The notes beneath the pieces were generated by a model. It did not search any database and had not been told where the DNA came from. It saw only the letters and a program-made list of their open reading frames with translations. Positions 4,133-25,516 of a DNA stretch of 34,988 bases are shown here, one piece after another. This stretch comes from a bacterium (lineage in GTDB: Bacteria; Calescibacteriota; Calescibacteriia; Calescibacteriales; Calescibacteriaceae), in the NCBI GenBank assembly GCA_030550715.1, contig JAUQOU010000022.1:1-34988 (forward strand), in the 5' to 3' direction. The position numbers were made by a program, and so were the translations under genes. Every line of letters begins with the position of its first letter. Positions within the stretch are counted from its first letter, which is position 1.

Positions 4133-4558
4133 CTATCTTACCTGTTGAACAGTAGATAATATAGATGGTTTTCCCAAAATCTCAATAACTTTCTGAGATG
4201 GGGTAAATATTTTGATGGTTGGTATAACAGGCATCTTGATATTTCCCAAAAAAGGTATAACAGAAGAGAGCATTGCTGAAAAATCATAAGCGTCAACTTG
4301 AACTTTGTATCCCTCAGGAATCTCACTCGGATATATATCAACATTGTATTTTTGTTTTATGTATGTTTCCGACGGGACCGAGAAGGTAAGGAACACTGCG
4401 TTTGACATTTCGTCTATTTTTCTGGCGATTTTCAGGTTAGCTATATGTATTCCAAGGAGAGCAACAAGCGTAGTTCCTAAAATCCACACAGCTACGAGAA
4501 CCTCAATAAGAGTAAAAGCCCTGTGAAAATTCAACTTTGTTATTTTCTCACTTCTCAT
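4133..4558 (-). CDS. Type II secretion / type IV pilus prepilin-like protein (GspI-like)
   Basis: 141 residues with a class III prepilin leader: a short basic N-terminus (MRSEKITKLNFHRA), a predicted prepilin-peptidase cut between Ala14 and Phe15, then FTLIEVLVAVWILGTTLVALLGI with Glu at position +5 (Glu19) and a single hydrophobic helix. The FTLIEVLVA core and the short size resemble the GspI minor pseudopilin; the C-terminal domain is not recognisable. It would be inserted in the inner membrane, processed by PilD and assembled into a pseudopilus. No other secretion gene is nearby. Its ATG overlaps the stop of the restriction endonuclease fragment as ATGA, and no good Shine-Dalgarno is seen, so it may depend on coupling to the restriction-modification genes. 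Confidence 0.8.
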   Translation of the reverse strand: MRSEKITKLNFHRAFTLIEVLVAVWILGTTLVALLGIHIANLKIARKIDEMSNAVFLTFSVPSETYIKQKYNVDIYPSEIPEGYKVQVDAYDFSAMLSSVIPFLGNIKMPVIPTIKIFTPSQKVIEILGKPSILSTVQQVR

Positions 4559-4965
4559 CTTGAAGATATTTTGCCTTCCGCTAGCAAATATTCTTGCTTA
4601 TAAAGCTCTTTATTACTTGCATTAAATTCATGCTTAACTTGCACTTTCAGTTTTTCTAATGTATAAAGTTGCCACGACACTGGCACAAATGCAATCTGTT
4701 CACCTCTTTCTCCTTTTGCCAATTCAAAGCTTAAAAGCATATGGAATGCATTTTTTGTAATTTTAGGGTTTTTAGATGGAGAAAAATAAAATGTCCTAAA
4801 TGATTGGTTTTTGGTTTTCGTGGCATATGTCTTACATTCAAGATAAACAACCCTTCCTTGTTTGTCAATAATTTCAATATCAGGGTAGCCTGCGGATTTT
4901 TTCTTTCCGATTTTTGTTAGAGGTTTATCTGCTTTAAGCCCTAATTCCCTTAATGCTGAAATCAC
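4555..4965 (-). CDS. Type II restriction endonuclease, C-terminal piece (frameshifted gene)
   Basis: This frame carries a PD-(D/E)XK nuclease core: GYPDIEIIDKQGRVVYLECK, with Asp29 of the PD pair and Glu43/Lys45 of the ExK pair, counting from the nominal start MISALRELG. The frame is already open upstream of that Met, encoding IIARRPNEAGNRIEPFV directly before it, as far as a TAA at 5017-5019. The N-terminal half lies in another frame (4994-5227). Removing one base near 5016-5024 would fuse them into one protein of about 220 residues. The adjacent methyltransferase supports a restriction role. The stop codon overlaps the prepilin start (ATGA). As sequenced, the enzyme would not be made whole. 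Confidence 0.75.
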   Translation of the reverse strand: MISALRELGLKADKPLTKIGKKKSAGYPDIEIIDKQGRVVYLECKTYATKTKNQSFRTFYFSPSKNPKITKNAFHMLLSFELAKGERGEQIAFVPVSWQLYTLEKLKVQVKHEFNASNKELYKQEYLLAEGKISSR

Positions 4966-4993
4966 AAAGGGTTCTATACGATTGCCTGCTTCA

Positions 4994-5227
4994 TTAGGTC
5001 TTCTTGCAATAATTCCTTATTTTATATGCTTCTTCGCCTGCCTTTTGTGCCGCGGTTTTCAAAAGCTCTAATAATTCCTGATTATTTTTATCTGATAAAT
5101 CAAAATGTAAAACTTCGCACACTGTCAATACCTTTATCGCAATTGAATATGGAATTTCTTTTATTGGTTCTAAAAATTTGCTTATTATTGTTTCAAGTTG
5201 CTTAATATATTCTTCTGGGTCATTCAT
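4994..5227 (-). CDS. Type II restriction endonuclease, N-terminal piece (frameshifted gene)
   Basis: 77 residues, MNDPEEYIKQLETIISKF onward, helical and charged, without a catalytic motif of its own. It overlaps the methyltransferase stop by 8 bases (GAATGA), as expected for the second gene of a restriction-modification operon. Its last in-phase residues, EEAYKIR, lead naturally into IIARRPNEAG in the +1 frame, so the last seven codons (NYCKKT and stop) are probably out of frame. The break lies in the A-rich stretch AAAATAAGG. Alternatives are a sequencing slip or a separate small protein; the first or a true inactivation is more likely. The piece is helical only by inspection; no structure was computed. 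Confidence 0.7.
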   Translation of the reverse strand: MNDPEEYIKQLETIISKFLEPIKEIPYSIAIKVLTVCEVLHFDLSDKNNQELLELLKTAAQKAGEEAYKIRNYCKKT

Positions 5228-6700: not shown

Positions 6701-7486
6701 TCAGTTTTCATTCTTTTTAACTTTCAGCTCTTCTAAATGTTTGAGCAAAAAGCGAGAAAGAACATCTATATCTTTTGTAATGCTCTCTTGAAAATCTTGA
6801 ATTATAGGAGATTGATTTAAAAACGGAGCTTTACCAGAAATTGATTTCAAACTCTCAAAAATATTTAAGTTCTTCACAGAAATAGCAAAACCTATATTAT
6901 CTTGCACTTTCCATGTTATTATACCTATCAACTTTCCATCTTTTGCTCTGAACATGCCACCACCGGAATTTCCCGGACCCACCGCTGCGTCGGTCTGGAT
7001 TATCTCGTAATCAGGACAATTCCCTCCTTCGGAAACGGTTCTCACACCGCTTACAATTCCTCTGCTCACGCTTGAACTCAAACCGTATGGATTCCCGACA
7101 ACAAACACACTATCTCCAACATTATAAACCTGGCTTATTTCAGCAGAACTATCAAGCTGAGAAGGAATCTTGATAACAGCAAGGTCAAGGCAATCACCTT
7201 CATCAACTATATCAGCAGTTCTATATAAAACGTCGTCTTTTAATCTCACCTCTATACTGCTTTTCAAATCAGGTACAAAATCTTTCACAACATCTAATAT
7301 GCATGTATAATCCCAGCAATCGGAAGTTGAAGAATAACAATTCCCAAGCTGTGAAGAACAGATGTCATCATTTGTACATCTTTCAAATGACCTTTGAAAC
7401 CTTTGATCACAATCCTTGTCAATTCCACAAAATCCCCATCTTATATGAGTTTGAAGGCAAGAGATATTATTAAAGCAAGCATTCAC
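6701..7486 (-). CDS. Trypsin-like serine protease, C-terminal piece (gene split by in-frame TGA)
   Basis: This open frame has a nominal GTG start and is in the same phase as the upstream piece ending at 7514, separated only by a TGA codon and nine sense codons (GGIKFCQDS). It contains the protease Asp (CLDLAVIKI, Asp101) and the nucleophile loop (TDAAVGPGNSGGGMF, Ser174) of an HtrA/S1C-like trypsin fold; the His lies in the upstream piece. Before Asp101 there is a Cys-rich stretch with nine Cys between residues 4 and 62. After the protease domain about 60 residues follow without a PDZ domain. A GGAGG lies directly after the TGA, about 20 bases before the GTG, so separate translation is conceivable, but it would lack the catalytic His. 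Confidence 0.75.
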   Translation of the reverse strand: MNACFNNISCLQTHIRWGFCGIDKDCDQRFQRSFERCTNDDICSSQLGNCYSSTSDCWDYTCILDVVKDFVPDLKSSIEVRLKDDVLYRTADIVDEGDCLDLAVIKIPSQLDSSAEISQVYNVGDSVFVVGNPYGLSSSVSRGIVSGVRTVSEGGNCPDYEIIQTDAAVGPGNSGGGMFRAKDGKLIGIITWKVQDNIGFAISVKNLNIFESLKSISGKAPFLNQSPIIQDFQESITKDIDVLSRFLLKHLEELKVKKNEN

Positions 7487-7513
7487 ACTATCTTGACAAA
7501 ACTTAATTCCTCC

Positions 7514-7894
7514 TCATGACTCTCCGCTACCTGTACCAGATTGCTGACTGCTGTAATAATCTATTATATAATTCCAAGCGATTGTCCATTTATCAACCAC
7601 ATGAGCGTTAGTTACTATTTTCCCGTCGCGAGATAAGATAACTCCTGAACCGAGAATTTCATATCTACTTGAACTCCACGAGCGGTCTTCAAGCCATATT
7701 TTAGTTCTTACCTCTGTGACGACCTTTTGTATATCTTTAATAATTTCCTGCTCTGACTTCTGTTTGCTTCCTCCACCACAAGAAAATGCAGAAAAAAGCA
7801 AGATCAAAAAAACAAATTTTGTTTTCAGAGCATTTATAAAACTATTTTCCCCTTCTGCTGAAACATTGCAGCAGAAAGAAATGAGTTTTTTCAT
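7514..7894 (-). CDS. Trypsin-like serine protease, N-terminal piece with catalytic His (ends at in-frame TGA)
   Basis: 126 residues. After an unusually long N-region (MKKLISFCCNVSAEGENS...) comes a hydrophobic segment, KTKFVFLILLFSAFSC, with Cys39 in a lipobox-like position followed by GGGSKQK, so a periplasmic lipoprotein is likely, although Phe at -2 is not ideal. The first half of a trypsin-like fold follows: GSGVILSRDGKIVTNAHVV, with the catalytic His98. The frame then runs into YYSSQQSGTGSGES and a TGA at 7514-7516; translation past that codon continues in phase into the Asp/Ser half of the same enzyme. The start is supported by GAAGGAAGGTGA upstream of the ATG. Nonsense mutation, sequencing error or recoding are all possible. 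Confidence 0.75.
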   Translation of the reverse strand: MKKLISFCCNVSAEGENSFINALKTKFVFLILLFSAFSCGGGSKQKSEQEIIKDIQKVVTEVRTKIWLEDRSWSSSRYEILGSGVILSRDGKIVTNAHVVDKWTIAWNYIIDYYSSQQSGTGSGES

Positions 7895-14190: not shown

Positions 14191-14463
14191 TCAATCTCTT
14201 GTAAGAACGATGACTTTTTCAAAATTATCAAAGTCGGTCAATCTCTTGAACTTGATATAACCCCTACCAAAATATGTAGGGAGAAGGTCGTTAAAATGCT
14301 TTGATATATCTGGTTTTTGAAGGTCTTTTCCAAAACCAAATACCCCTCCAGGGAAGGCAAACTCAATAGAAAATAATCCGGTCTTATCATCTGGAACTGC
14401 GATAGACCTCATAGATGGTCCCCCTTGAATAAGGACCAATATCAAACAGAGATAAATTAGCAA
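14191..14463 (-). CDS. Penicillin-acylase-family protein, C-terminal piece (frameshifted)
   Basis: From the C5 tract at 14420-14424 (G5 in the coding sense) down to 14191, this frame encodes GGPSMRSIAVPDDKTGLFSI, then a HFNDLLPTYFGRGY stretch and a final FEKVIVLTRD, which read as the natural C-terminal end of the acylase beta chain. The nominal Met start upstream of the tract is a chance codon; the real upstream sequence is in the other frame (14387-16780). One extra G in the tract would give SRGGPSMRS without interruption. The stop is 3 bases from that of the convergent winged-helix gene. Confidence 0.7.
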   Translation of the reverse strand: MLIYLCLILVLIQGGPSMRSIAVPDDKTGLFSIEFAFPGGVFGFGKDLQKPDISKHFNDLLPTYFGRGYIKFKRLTDFDNFEKVIVLTRD

Positions 14464-16780
14464 AAGAAGTGAAGTGGAAAAGTTTTAGCTTGCTTAATTT
14501 CCCCCAAAGCCAGCTTTCTGGGTTTTGCCCGAACTTTTTGGAAAGATAAGACACCGCTTGCCTGAAACTCAAAAAAGCAATATCTTCAAAATTTTCTCTG
14601 TCACCAGTCCTTAAATCATCAAAAAAATCTATCTTATGCGTTCCCTGAGAGTAAAAGTATAGCTGTTTGAGAAAGTAGTCCTCAAAAGAAGGAGAGATTT
14701 TCAGGTTATACTTTTCAAATTCGTCTGAAAATGTATTTTTTATTATGTTTGTGACAGAAACCCAAAATATTGTGCATGCGGAAGAGTTGTTTCTCACCTT
14801 CTGATCATCAAGTTCAGCAAACTGCAAATTTTCAAGGTCAGAAAGAGTGAAACCAGATCTACATGTCATATCCCAGCTTTTCAAAAGGGAGAGAGCTTTT
14901 TTCTCTAAATCTGTCATATTGGGTTCAAAACCAGAAAGCGCATTCAGAAAAGAAGGTAAAAATCCACGAGTCCAATATGAAACAGTATCATGCTGAATCT
15001 CCTTCACATCCGAAACACTTATTTTGCCTTTTTTCAACTTTTCCTGAACCATATAGGTAATTTCAGCAACTCTGTATCCAGGATCATACGACCAAAAGAG
15101 ATACAGAGGGTCATCAAATGGGTCTCCATCTGATGTATAACCGGGAAGGTCGTTATTTGCGGTAACTATAAAACCTTTTGGGGGATTTATGGTATGAGGG
15201 AATTTATTTTTTTCTGCCCATTTTTCCCAATCGCAACAACCATCTGTTGGGAGCGCTACGATAGGTGGAAATTGATAGAGATTCCATTTTCTATCTGGGA
15301 GGAGAGCATAAGTTGAGTATCCTATATTTCCTTTGAGATCAGCAACGACAAAGTTTATTGGAGCAACTTCAAATTCAGTTGCTCGCTTCAAAAACTCTTG
15401 AACATCGCCTGCAAGAAGAATGTCTAAAAACACAAGAACTTCACGAGATTGCTCTCCACCATTCCACCTGAAAGAAAGGAACTCACCTTCCGATAAAACT
15501 ACCCGAGCGGGAATCTTCCCTTTCAATACATCTTCTCTTTTCCCTAAAATTACTCCATGCTTTTTACAATAGAAAAGCTCAAAACTTTTGCTTGAAGGAA
15601 CTTTTATCTCGCTTGATTCAACACAAAAATCATCAGTCGGATTTGAACGATTATGTACAAACTTAAATCCCGTCTTACAATTTGCGTCTGGTTCTAAAAA
15701 TTCTTTGTAGATATCAAGTGAGTCGTATCCACCGTTTGTCACAGCCCATGCGACTTTACCGTTTGTTCCGGAGAGAATTCCCGGAATACCTGCAAGTGCG
15801 AAACCTTCAATTATATCTTCTCCAAATTCTCCTTTCCATGGGAACCACAAAGGAGGGTTAAAAAGAGGGAGATGAGGGTCATTCGCAACTATTGGTTTTC
15901 CATCAGCTGTGAGGGTAGATGAAATAACCCAGTTATTGCTACCAAGTTTTTCAGAAGCAGAGAGAAAATCAAGCACATCAAAAATCACAGGGTTGGGTAA
16001 TGAAGGTGGAGATGGTAATGTGAATATATTCACTCCTGCCCTTGCAGTGAGCATTTCAAGAAAATAAGTTCTAAAAACCTCATCGCCAACAACTTCTTTT
16101 ATATATTCTCTTAAAGAGTCAAGAGCTAAATCTCCTTGACCTGTAAGGTACCACTCAAAAAACCTCGCTATAGCCAGAACCTGCTGAGGAGTGAAGAAAA
16201 ATTTTTGCGGGTCATTCTTCGGGTTTCTTGCAGAAAGAATAGATGAGTACTCAGGAGGCAGTTCCTCAAGCCCTTCGGACAACCTCTTTATGTAAAAATT
16301 TATACCTTCGGTAAAAGCCAGCAATAAAAGAGCAGAAGATATCCTTTGAGATTGCAAGAGCTCCCACTGCATATCGGTAACCAGTTTTCCAGTAGATGGA
16401 TTAAGAAGCGTTCTCAAAGTGAGAGCGTCTATCTCTCTTGCTTGCTCTATATCTATTATAGAAGAAACCATACCGTTGGATATAACTCTTAGGAGGTCAA
16501 TCTGTGAATATCTCGCTTTCGCCATAATATAGCCGAGAGCAAAAATTCCAGATAGAAAATCGTCTGACTTTATATAAGGAATTCCATCCTTATCTATAAG
16601 TATTATCGCTGAAAACTGAGAGCTCTTAACTTCCTCACGAGGTATAGTTGATGGAATCTTATCTAAAAAGTTCTCTTTTTTTTGTGTTTGACATGACAGG
16701 AAAGAAAGAAAAGGAACAAGAAAAAGGGAAATTGCCGTTTTATATGAAGGAAAAATTAACCTGAAAAGTTTTTCAAGCAT
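14387..16780 (-). CDS. Penicillin acylase-family Ntn hydrolase, lipoprotein (frameshifted near the 3' end)
   Basis: 797 codons. A lipoprotein signal (FLVPFLSFLSC, then QTQKKEN) leads to a periplasmic precursor in which an alpha chain, a spacer and a beta chain are made by autocleavage. The expected cleavage site and catalytic Ser is present in KLGSNNWVISSTLTADGKP, followed by VANDPHLPLFNPPLWF and a GIPGILSGTNGKVAWAVTNG stretch, which are standard family motifs. Substrates range from acyl-homoserine lactones to cyclic or N-acyl amides, and nothing here selects one. The last dozen residues (TIYEVYRSSR) are out of phase: after FDIGPYSRG the family continues in another frame (14191-14424). The start is leaderless-like, with TAAATT at -12 to -7. 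The protein as read lacks about 75 C-terminal residues. Confidence 0.85.
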   Translation of the reverse strand: MLEKLFRLIFPSYKTAISLFLVPFLSFLSCQTQKKENFLDKIPSTIPREEVKSSQFSAIILIDKDGIPYIKSDDFLSGIFALGYIMAKARYSQIDLLRVISNGMVSSIIDIEQAREIDALTLRTLLNPSTGKLVTDMQWELLQSQRISSALLLLAFTEGINFYIKRLSEGLEELPPEYSSILSARNPKNDPQKFFFTPQQVLAIARFFEWYLTGQGDLALDSLREYIKEVVGDEVFRTYFLEMLTARAGVNIFTLPSPPSLPNPVIFDVLDFLSASEKLGSNNWVISSTLTADGKPIVANDPHLPLFNPPLWFPWKGEFGEDIIEGFALAGIPGILSGTNGKVAWAVTNGGYDSLDIYKEFLEPDANCKTGFKFVHNRSNPTDDFCVESSEIKVPSSKSFELFYCKKHGVILGKREDVLKGKIPARVVLSEGEFLSFRWNGGEQSREVLVFLDILLAGDVQEFLKRATEFEVAPINFVVADLKGNIGYSTYALLPDRKWNLYQFPPIVALPTDGCCDWEKWAEKNKFPHTINPPKGFIVTANNDLPGYTSDGDPFDDPLYLFWSYDPGYRVAEITYMVQEKLKKGKISVSDVKEIQHDTVSYWTRGFLPSFLNALSGFEPNMTDLEKKALSLLKSWDMTCRSGFTLSDLENLQFAELDDQKVRNNSSACTIFWVSVTNIIKNTFSDEFEKYNLKISPSFEDYFLKQLYFYSQGTHKIDFFDDLRTGDRENFEDIAFLSFRQAVSYLSKKFGQNPESWLWGKLSKLKLFHFTSFANLSLFDIGPYSRGTIYEVYRSSR

Positions 16781-24300: not shown

Positions 24301-25302
24301 TTATTGGTTTTTCTGCTTTTGGAATTCTTTTTTGTATTTCTGCAATTTTTTTCTTTTCAGGATTTCAAAATATACTTTCGGCGGAACATAGGGTTTTGGA
24401 GAACCTGTTAAAAATTCTCCTTCCATAAATCCAAATGAATAAATTACTGGAACTTTCTCATATCTCCCGAAAGAATCTCTGGCTCTTATTTTCACTATAT
24501 TGAGTCCCAATTTCAAATCTTTTATCTTCAGGGGTGAGGAGCATTTTTTCCATCCCGAATCGTTTATATTGCACTCAAATTCAACATCTTCTTCATCTGA
24601 GGTAAATTCAAATTCCGCATGGTTAATATTTGTAGCACTCGGAGGAGCAGATAAAAGCAAAGTCAGGGGAGGTTTTGCATCAACTCTGAAAAAAAATTCT
24701 TTTGGAGGATTCTCTTCGTTTCCAGCGAGGTCAACCGAAAATGCAGATATTTTATGCCACCCATCTTCTATATTTGTCAGAATAATTTTTCCCGAGGAAC
24801 AATCCATCCAAAAACCATCATCTACACTACATAGTGTTGATTTATACGGTTCATTAACGATAAAGTCAATTTCACCTTCTGGTTTTGTGAGGACATCAGA
24901 AAAATCAACTGGCTTTATTTCGGTGATGGGAGGAGTCGTATCCACAATGAAATTATATTCCAGAATCTTTCCCACACATTTCCCTTCAACATAGTATACA
25001 GAAAAAGTTTTCTCTCCATCTTCCTCAACCGAAACCAAACTTGATAAGGAAACAGGACAGGGAAATTCTTTATCATTGAGATAACACAAAAAAGTTATGG
25101 GTGGAGAGAAAGAAAATTTTGCATCATTTTTGTTCCATAATTTCGGAGGGCTCTCAAGTAGTTTTGCGGGGGACTTTATTTGAGGACACTCTTCTTTACT
25201 TTCTATCTGGATTGTTCTGGTTTGAGTTGGAAGATAAATTTCTTCTGGTTCCCATTCCCTTGCTCCTAATTTTTCAATTTCTTTTACTGCAGTATGAGGC
25301 AA
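24301..25302 (-). CDS. Ig-like repeat protein, main piece (frameshifted from its membrane anchor)
   Basis: 333 residues from a nominal TTG; the frame is actually open up to 25368. It holds about three beta-sandwich repeats with the recurrent pattern of two Cys flanking a Trp or similar residue (FLCYLNDKEFPCP; TLCSVDDGFWMDCSS; FECNINDSGWKKCSSP), followed by phrases like DGWHKISAFSVDLAGNEENP and linkers with TTPP or KPPL. Such modules are frequent in large surface proteins of Gram-negative bacteria, and the Cys pair probably forms a disulphide. The protein ends in a Lys-rich tail (RKKLQKYKKEFQKQKNQ). The N-terminal anchor lies in another frame (25346-25516), so the nominal start here is probably artificial. 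Confidence 0.65.
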   Translation of the reverse strand: MPHTAVKEIEKLGAREWEPEEIYLPTQTRTIQIESKEECPQIKSPAKLLESPPKLWNKNDAKFSFSPPITFLCYLNDKEFPCPVSLSSLVSVEEDGEKTFSVYYVEGKCVGKILEYNFIVDTTPPITEIKPVDFSDVLTKPEGEIDFIVNEPYKSTLCSVDDGFWMDCSSGKIILTNIEDGWHKISAFSVDLAGNEENPPKEFFFRVDAKPPLTLLLSAPPSATNINHAEFEFTSDEEDVEFECNINDSGWKKCSSPLKIKDLKLGLNIVKIRARDSFGRYEKVPVIYSFGFMEGEFLTGSPKPYVPPKVYFEILKRKKLQKYKKEFQKQKNQ

Positions 25303-25345
25303 AGAAGGAGATTTTTTTTCTTTTCCTTCCTGGGAACTCTCAATT

Positions 25346-25516
25346 TCAGCTTGTCTCTGCTTTTTCCTTCAGAATTTTAATTTCTGTTATTTTTGGCTTC
25401 CCATAGAATGGACATTTTGAAATCACGAGTCCAAGAATTAACCCGATCAAAAGCGAAATTATATTGGATAAAATTTTTTGAGAGGTTTTCTCTTTTTCTT
25501 TGCGGTCAGCTTTCAC
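25346..25516 (-). CDS. N-terminal membrane-anchor piece of the Ig-like repeat protein
   Basis: 56 codons from a GTG preceded by GGGAGG. The sequence has a basic N-terminus (KADRKEKEKTSQK) and one membrane helix (IISLLIGLILGLVISK), followed by CPFYGKPKITEIKILKEKA and a TGA. Dropping one A from the A5 tract at 25361-25365 converts KILKEKA into KILKEKQRQAEIESS and joins the frame of the Ig-like piece. The result would be a signal-anchored periplasmic or surface protein of about 400 residues. Confidence 0.6.
   Translation of the reverse strand: MKADRKEKEKTSQKILSNIISLLIGLILGLVISKCPFYGKPKITEIKILKEKAETS

Follow-up and report, generated by a model that had tools for sequence, protein, structure and literature searches.

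A single in-frame TGA in an HtrA-like serine protease gene is probably a recent nonsense lesion

When one stop codon stands inside an otherwise continuous protease frame, is it a lesion, an error of the assembly or a codon that the ribosome passes? The question is raised by positions 6701–7894 of the reverse strand of the window, the 34,988-nt stretch of DNA from an uncultured bacterium analysed here. Translation from 7894 down to 6701 yields 126 sense codons, a TGA (7516–7514), 270 further sense codons and a terminal TGA (6701–6703), which translation and the stop count mark as the gene's normal stop. The His motif (TNAHVV) lies 5′ of the internal TGA, while those of Asp (CLDLAVIKI) and Ser (GNSGGG) follow on its 3′ side, in the same frame. 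According to translation, Pfam and alignment, the 5′ half (7517–7894) comprises a signal or lipoprotein leader and that portion of an HtrA-like trypsin domain which holds the catalytic His, and the 3′ half (6704–7262) comprises the catalytic Asp and Ser parts and a C-terminal tail; a Cys-rich insertion (7263–7501) separates the His and Asp parts. The sequence-only reading, which had described a His half and an Asp/Ser half in one frame with only the TGA at 7514–7516 between them, was correct on translation in both coordinates and description. The locus is one HtrA-like (S1C) serine protease frame split by a TGA.

The family assignment rests chiefly on Pfam Trypsin_2 (PF13365), which matches the downstream half at 5e-15 (profile positions 37–144) and the upstream half weakly and under the cut-off (profile positions 1–23). 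The best PDB matches of the protease are DegP-like, HhoA and HTRA1. Like HtrA/DegP-type (S1C) proteases, the protein contains the ordered His, Asp and Ser motifs and the GNSGG site, whereas it differs from them in the lack of a PDZ match (none was found in a Pfam scan of the intact protein), in an insertion of approximately 75 residues with 10 Cys between His and Asp, and in the TGA interruption itself. The NCBIfam DegP, DegQ and DegS models all scored far under their cut-offs, and the protein is therefore not assigned to DegP, DegQ or DegS proper. Given the lipoprotein-like leader LFSAFSCGGG, the product would be an ordinary secreted HtrA-like serine protease and putatively a lipoprotein, the lipobox having been judged by eye. 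A structure of the read-through protein predicted from a two-row alignment only (mean pLDDT 35.7) was left unused.

The nearest genome, that of bacterium HR19 (a literature search on HRbin19 found no papers), is syntenic with the whole window at roughly 80–90 % DNA identity. At the same position and among the same neighbours it encodes an intact orthologue of 379 aa, 79 % identical, in which Trypsin_2 matches at 7e-20 (Pfam scan) and the His, Asp and Ser motifs are all present. Because this single protein spans both halves, a chance adjacency of two open reading frames is ruled out; its presence without the stop in a sister lineage is the situation expected of a pseudogene. DNA alignment revealed that an in-frame stretch of 15 nt starting with the TGA (7502–7516, placement approximate) is absent from HR19; past the leader, every other indel that separates the two genes also has a length divisible by three. 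A further orthologue from the same family, in genome G003 (410 aa, 38 % identical), carries another linker sequence at this place, and the linker varies in length among relatives. It had been proposed beforehand that close homologues would reveal which residue stands at the TGA: HR19 has no residue there, the G003 linker reads EEVDPDPF, and neither protein has a Cys or Sec opposite the TGA. The TGA is thus not conserved in HR19 or G003, and the intact protein is one polypeptide.

The window's genome appears to read UGA in the standard way. TGA is the commonest stop in the window, where it ends 15 of the 30 likely genes, including those of the PBP, the methyltransferase and the protease itself, which bears out the earlier remark that it is a normal stop elsewhere in the window. 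Release factor RF2 scored 482 bits, over the cut-off, and was also found in three of the four other family genomes. The look-up of selA, selB and selC suggested with that reading gave a uniform outcome. selA was absent from all five family genomes (the assemblies are 82–87 % complete, yet the five absences agree), and selB had no match over the cut-off in these genomes, the matches below it being best explained as other translation GTPases. Nothing convincing emerged among the family genomes for tRNA-Sec. The best match of the tRNA-Sec model was inspected in two of them, and is tRNA-Leu(UAA) in the window's genome (52 bits, compared with 66–80 bits in selA-bearing genomes) and tRNA-Ser(UGA) in the related genome G001.

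Taken together, these observations suggest that the TGA is probably a recent nonsense lesion in the gene of a dispensable secreted protease, which would then be a pseudogene or a strain variant, in other words ordinary gene decay. This reading is favoured by the intact syntenic HR19 orthologue without the TGA, by the presence of RF2, the prevalence of TGA as a stop and the lack of selA and of selB over the cut-off in the family genomes, and by the lack of a usable Shine–Dalgarno sequence and start after the TGA. It is also favoured by three more window genes that are broken by differing types of lesion, and by the lack of any broken window gene in HR19. The gene for a secreted HtrA-like lipoprotein protease would have acquired the lesion in this genome, and translation would end at the UGA after 126 residues, leaving a truncated product with the His and without the Asp and Ser. 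Since Asp and Ser would be missing, no active protease is expected. The TGA in the sequence, the intact orthologue, the lack of recoding machinery in the assemblies searched and the other broken genes are observed directly, whereas we infer that the organism's own DNA carries the TGA and that its product has no activity. The locus resembles recent bacterial pseudogenes interrupted by a nonsense codon in its single disabling stop, in the intact orthologue of a sister species and in the lack of other decay; it differs from them in that the stop is part of an insertion and does not replace a shared codon, and is otherwise not distinctive.

A counterpoint is that the remaining gene is undecayed. 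The catalytic residues and cysteines are kept, and in the comparison with HR19 dN/dS amounts to 0.16 for the part before the TGA and 0.36 for the part after it (0.20 for the protease domain beyond the insertion). With G003 as the outgroup, the changes unique to the window and to HR19 number 3 and 4, respectively, before the TGA and 10 and 7 after it, and the window's branch has no excess of changes. The lack of a decay signal implies that the lesion is very recent, polymorphic or an artefact. Divergence from HR19 is also uneven along 6704–7894 (reverse strand), with a dS of 0.92 before the TGA and 0.25 in the 3′ protease domain, and this unevenness might reflect recombination.

When every gene in the window was compared with HR19, breaks were seen in one direction: of the 29 HR19 genes, 4 are disrupted in the window, and of the 30 window genes, none is disrupted in HR19. 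Besides the protease, two genes carry 1-nt insertions and one has lost approximately 80 bp. In the gene at about 4555–5227 (reverse strand), an A run near 5018 is lengthened by a 1-nt insertion, and the HR19 copy is intact at 223 aa; the gene has no significant Pfam match, and a guess from its sequence is that it may encode an endonuclease. The penicillin-amidase-like gene at 14387–16780, within the region 14191–16780 (reverse strand), lacks approximately 80 bp of the HR19 sequence near 14430, which shifts the frame, and its C-terminal part carries on in another frame. In the gene at 24301–25507 (reverse strand) a 1-nt insertion is followed by a stop near 25360, the HR19 copy being intact at 388 aa. 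The rate of breaks elsewhere was sampled on eight other contigs (about 60–70 genes compared). Inspection left one clear break, a 1-nt shift relative to HR19 in a glycosyltransferase gene on contig C41 (L081:1178-2054); several other apparent breaks outside the window, on C70, C44, C52, C55, part of C41 and C29, were rejected as antisense open reading frames or start-site differences.

These additional breaks bear on the explanation ranked second, in which the gene is intact in the organism and the TGA, perhaps together with the 15-nt stretch, stems from base-calling, strain mixing or a metagenome mis-join. The genome is a draft (87 % complete, 70 contigs), the protease gene shows no other decay, and several broken neighbours, including the abrupt loss of approximately 80 bp in the penicillin-amidase-like gene, are what a poor contig might contain. 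However, the lesions are of mixed types, the sampled contigs elsewhere are nearly clean, and the broken genes are poorly conserved: random base errors would strike Lon and the PBP in proportion to gene length, yet these long, conserved genes are intact. The mean protein identity of the four broken genes is 80.5 %, below that of length-weighted random picks (P = 0.0025, for a test with n = 4 devised after the genes had been seen), as relaxed selection predicts. The local excess of breaks, 4 of 29 versus about 1 of 60, has a P of about 0.04, with the same caveat. The 15-nt stretch absent from HR19 and the other broken genes also speak for a genuine lesion and against a base error. An artefact of sequence or assembly is regarded as rather unlikely. 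The best reading of the broken window genes is that they are probably dispensable and mostly fast-evolving and that their lesions are probably recent, the protease lesion being one among several.

Leaky read-through, in which the ribosome would sometimes insert an amino acid at the UGA and produce a little full-length protease, possibly as a control of expression, fares considerably worse. The downstream half keeps its catalytic residues and a signal of purifying selection, and interrupted genes under constraint have been described in bacteria, some of which may be read through (PMC7918605). The dN/dS signal, however, may mostly predate the lesion, the TGA is conserved in neither HR19 nor G003, and no structure was found downstream of it. 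Nothing here points specifically to read-through, which we consider improbable; by analogy with what has been proposed for some interrupted constrained bacterial genes, a leaky UGA could conceivably be a switch that holds a secreted protease with a Cys-rich insert at low expression, an idea that is slightly more doubtful still.

That the halves are two separate proteins, the second restarting after the TGA, is very improbable. Right at the TGA there is an AGGAGG, but approximately 22 nt separate it from the first start codon in frame (GTG 7486), no in-frame start with a Shine–Dalgarno sequence at a usable distance was found after the TGA, the downstream piece would lack the signal peptide and the catalytic His, and the relatives in HR19 and G003 have one protein in one open reading frame with no restart.

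An in-frame UGA with sense codons beyond it could in principle be decoded as selenocysteine or by a reassigned code; with negative outcomes for selA, selB, tRNA-Sec and the hairpin and no aligned HR19 residue at the TGA, the former is effectively excluded, and with RF2 present and TGA used as a stop so is the latter, leaving this explanation hardly credible. The hairpin test also justified the initial doubt about a CAAG/CTTG stem as a SECIS element, the 60 nt from the TGA onwards folding worse than shuffled sequences (z = +0.84); Rfam has no match at the site. The sequence-only reading, which ranked selenocysteine behind a nonsense mutation or a base error, is therefore supported by intact homologues without the TGA and by the lack of selA and of selB over the cut-off in the family genomes. 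An annotation of the protease gene as a selenoprotein or a case of recoding is to be avoided. A commonplace broken gene of this kind in a draft genome matters little by itself, although the window, which holds several lesions, calls for caution.

The locus also draws attention to a Cys-rich form of HtrA-like protease that is specific to this lineage, in a group of bacteria about which little is known. The 10-Cys insertion is the only unusual point of the protein, and a side one. It matches no Pfam family, its 10 Cys are conserved in the window's genome, HR19 and G003, and a search of 145 genomes with its profile matched only three, all from this bacterial family, so that it is lineage-specific among the genomes searched. 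The related G001 protein has a different Cys-containing insertion. By inspection, two further Cys are common to all four aligned proteins, one located two residues before the catalytic Asp (listed as invariant in the alignment) and one before the Ser region, and these two may form a disulfide.
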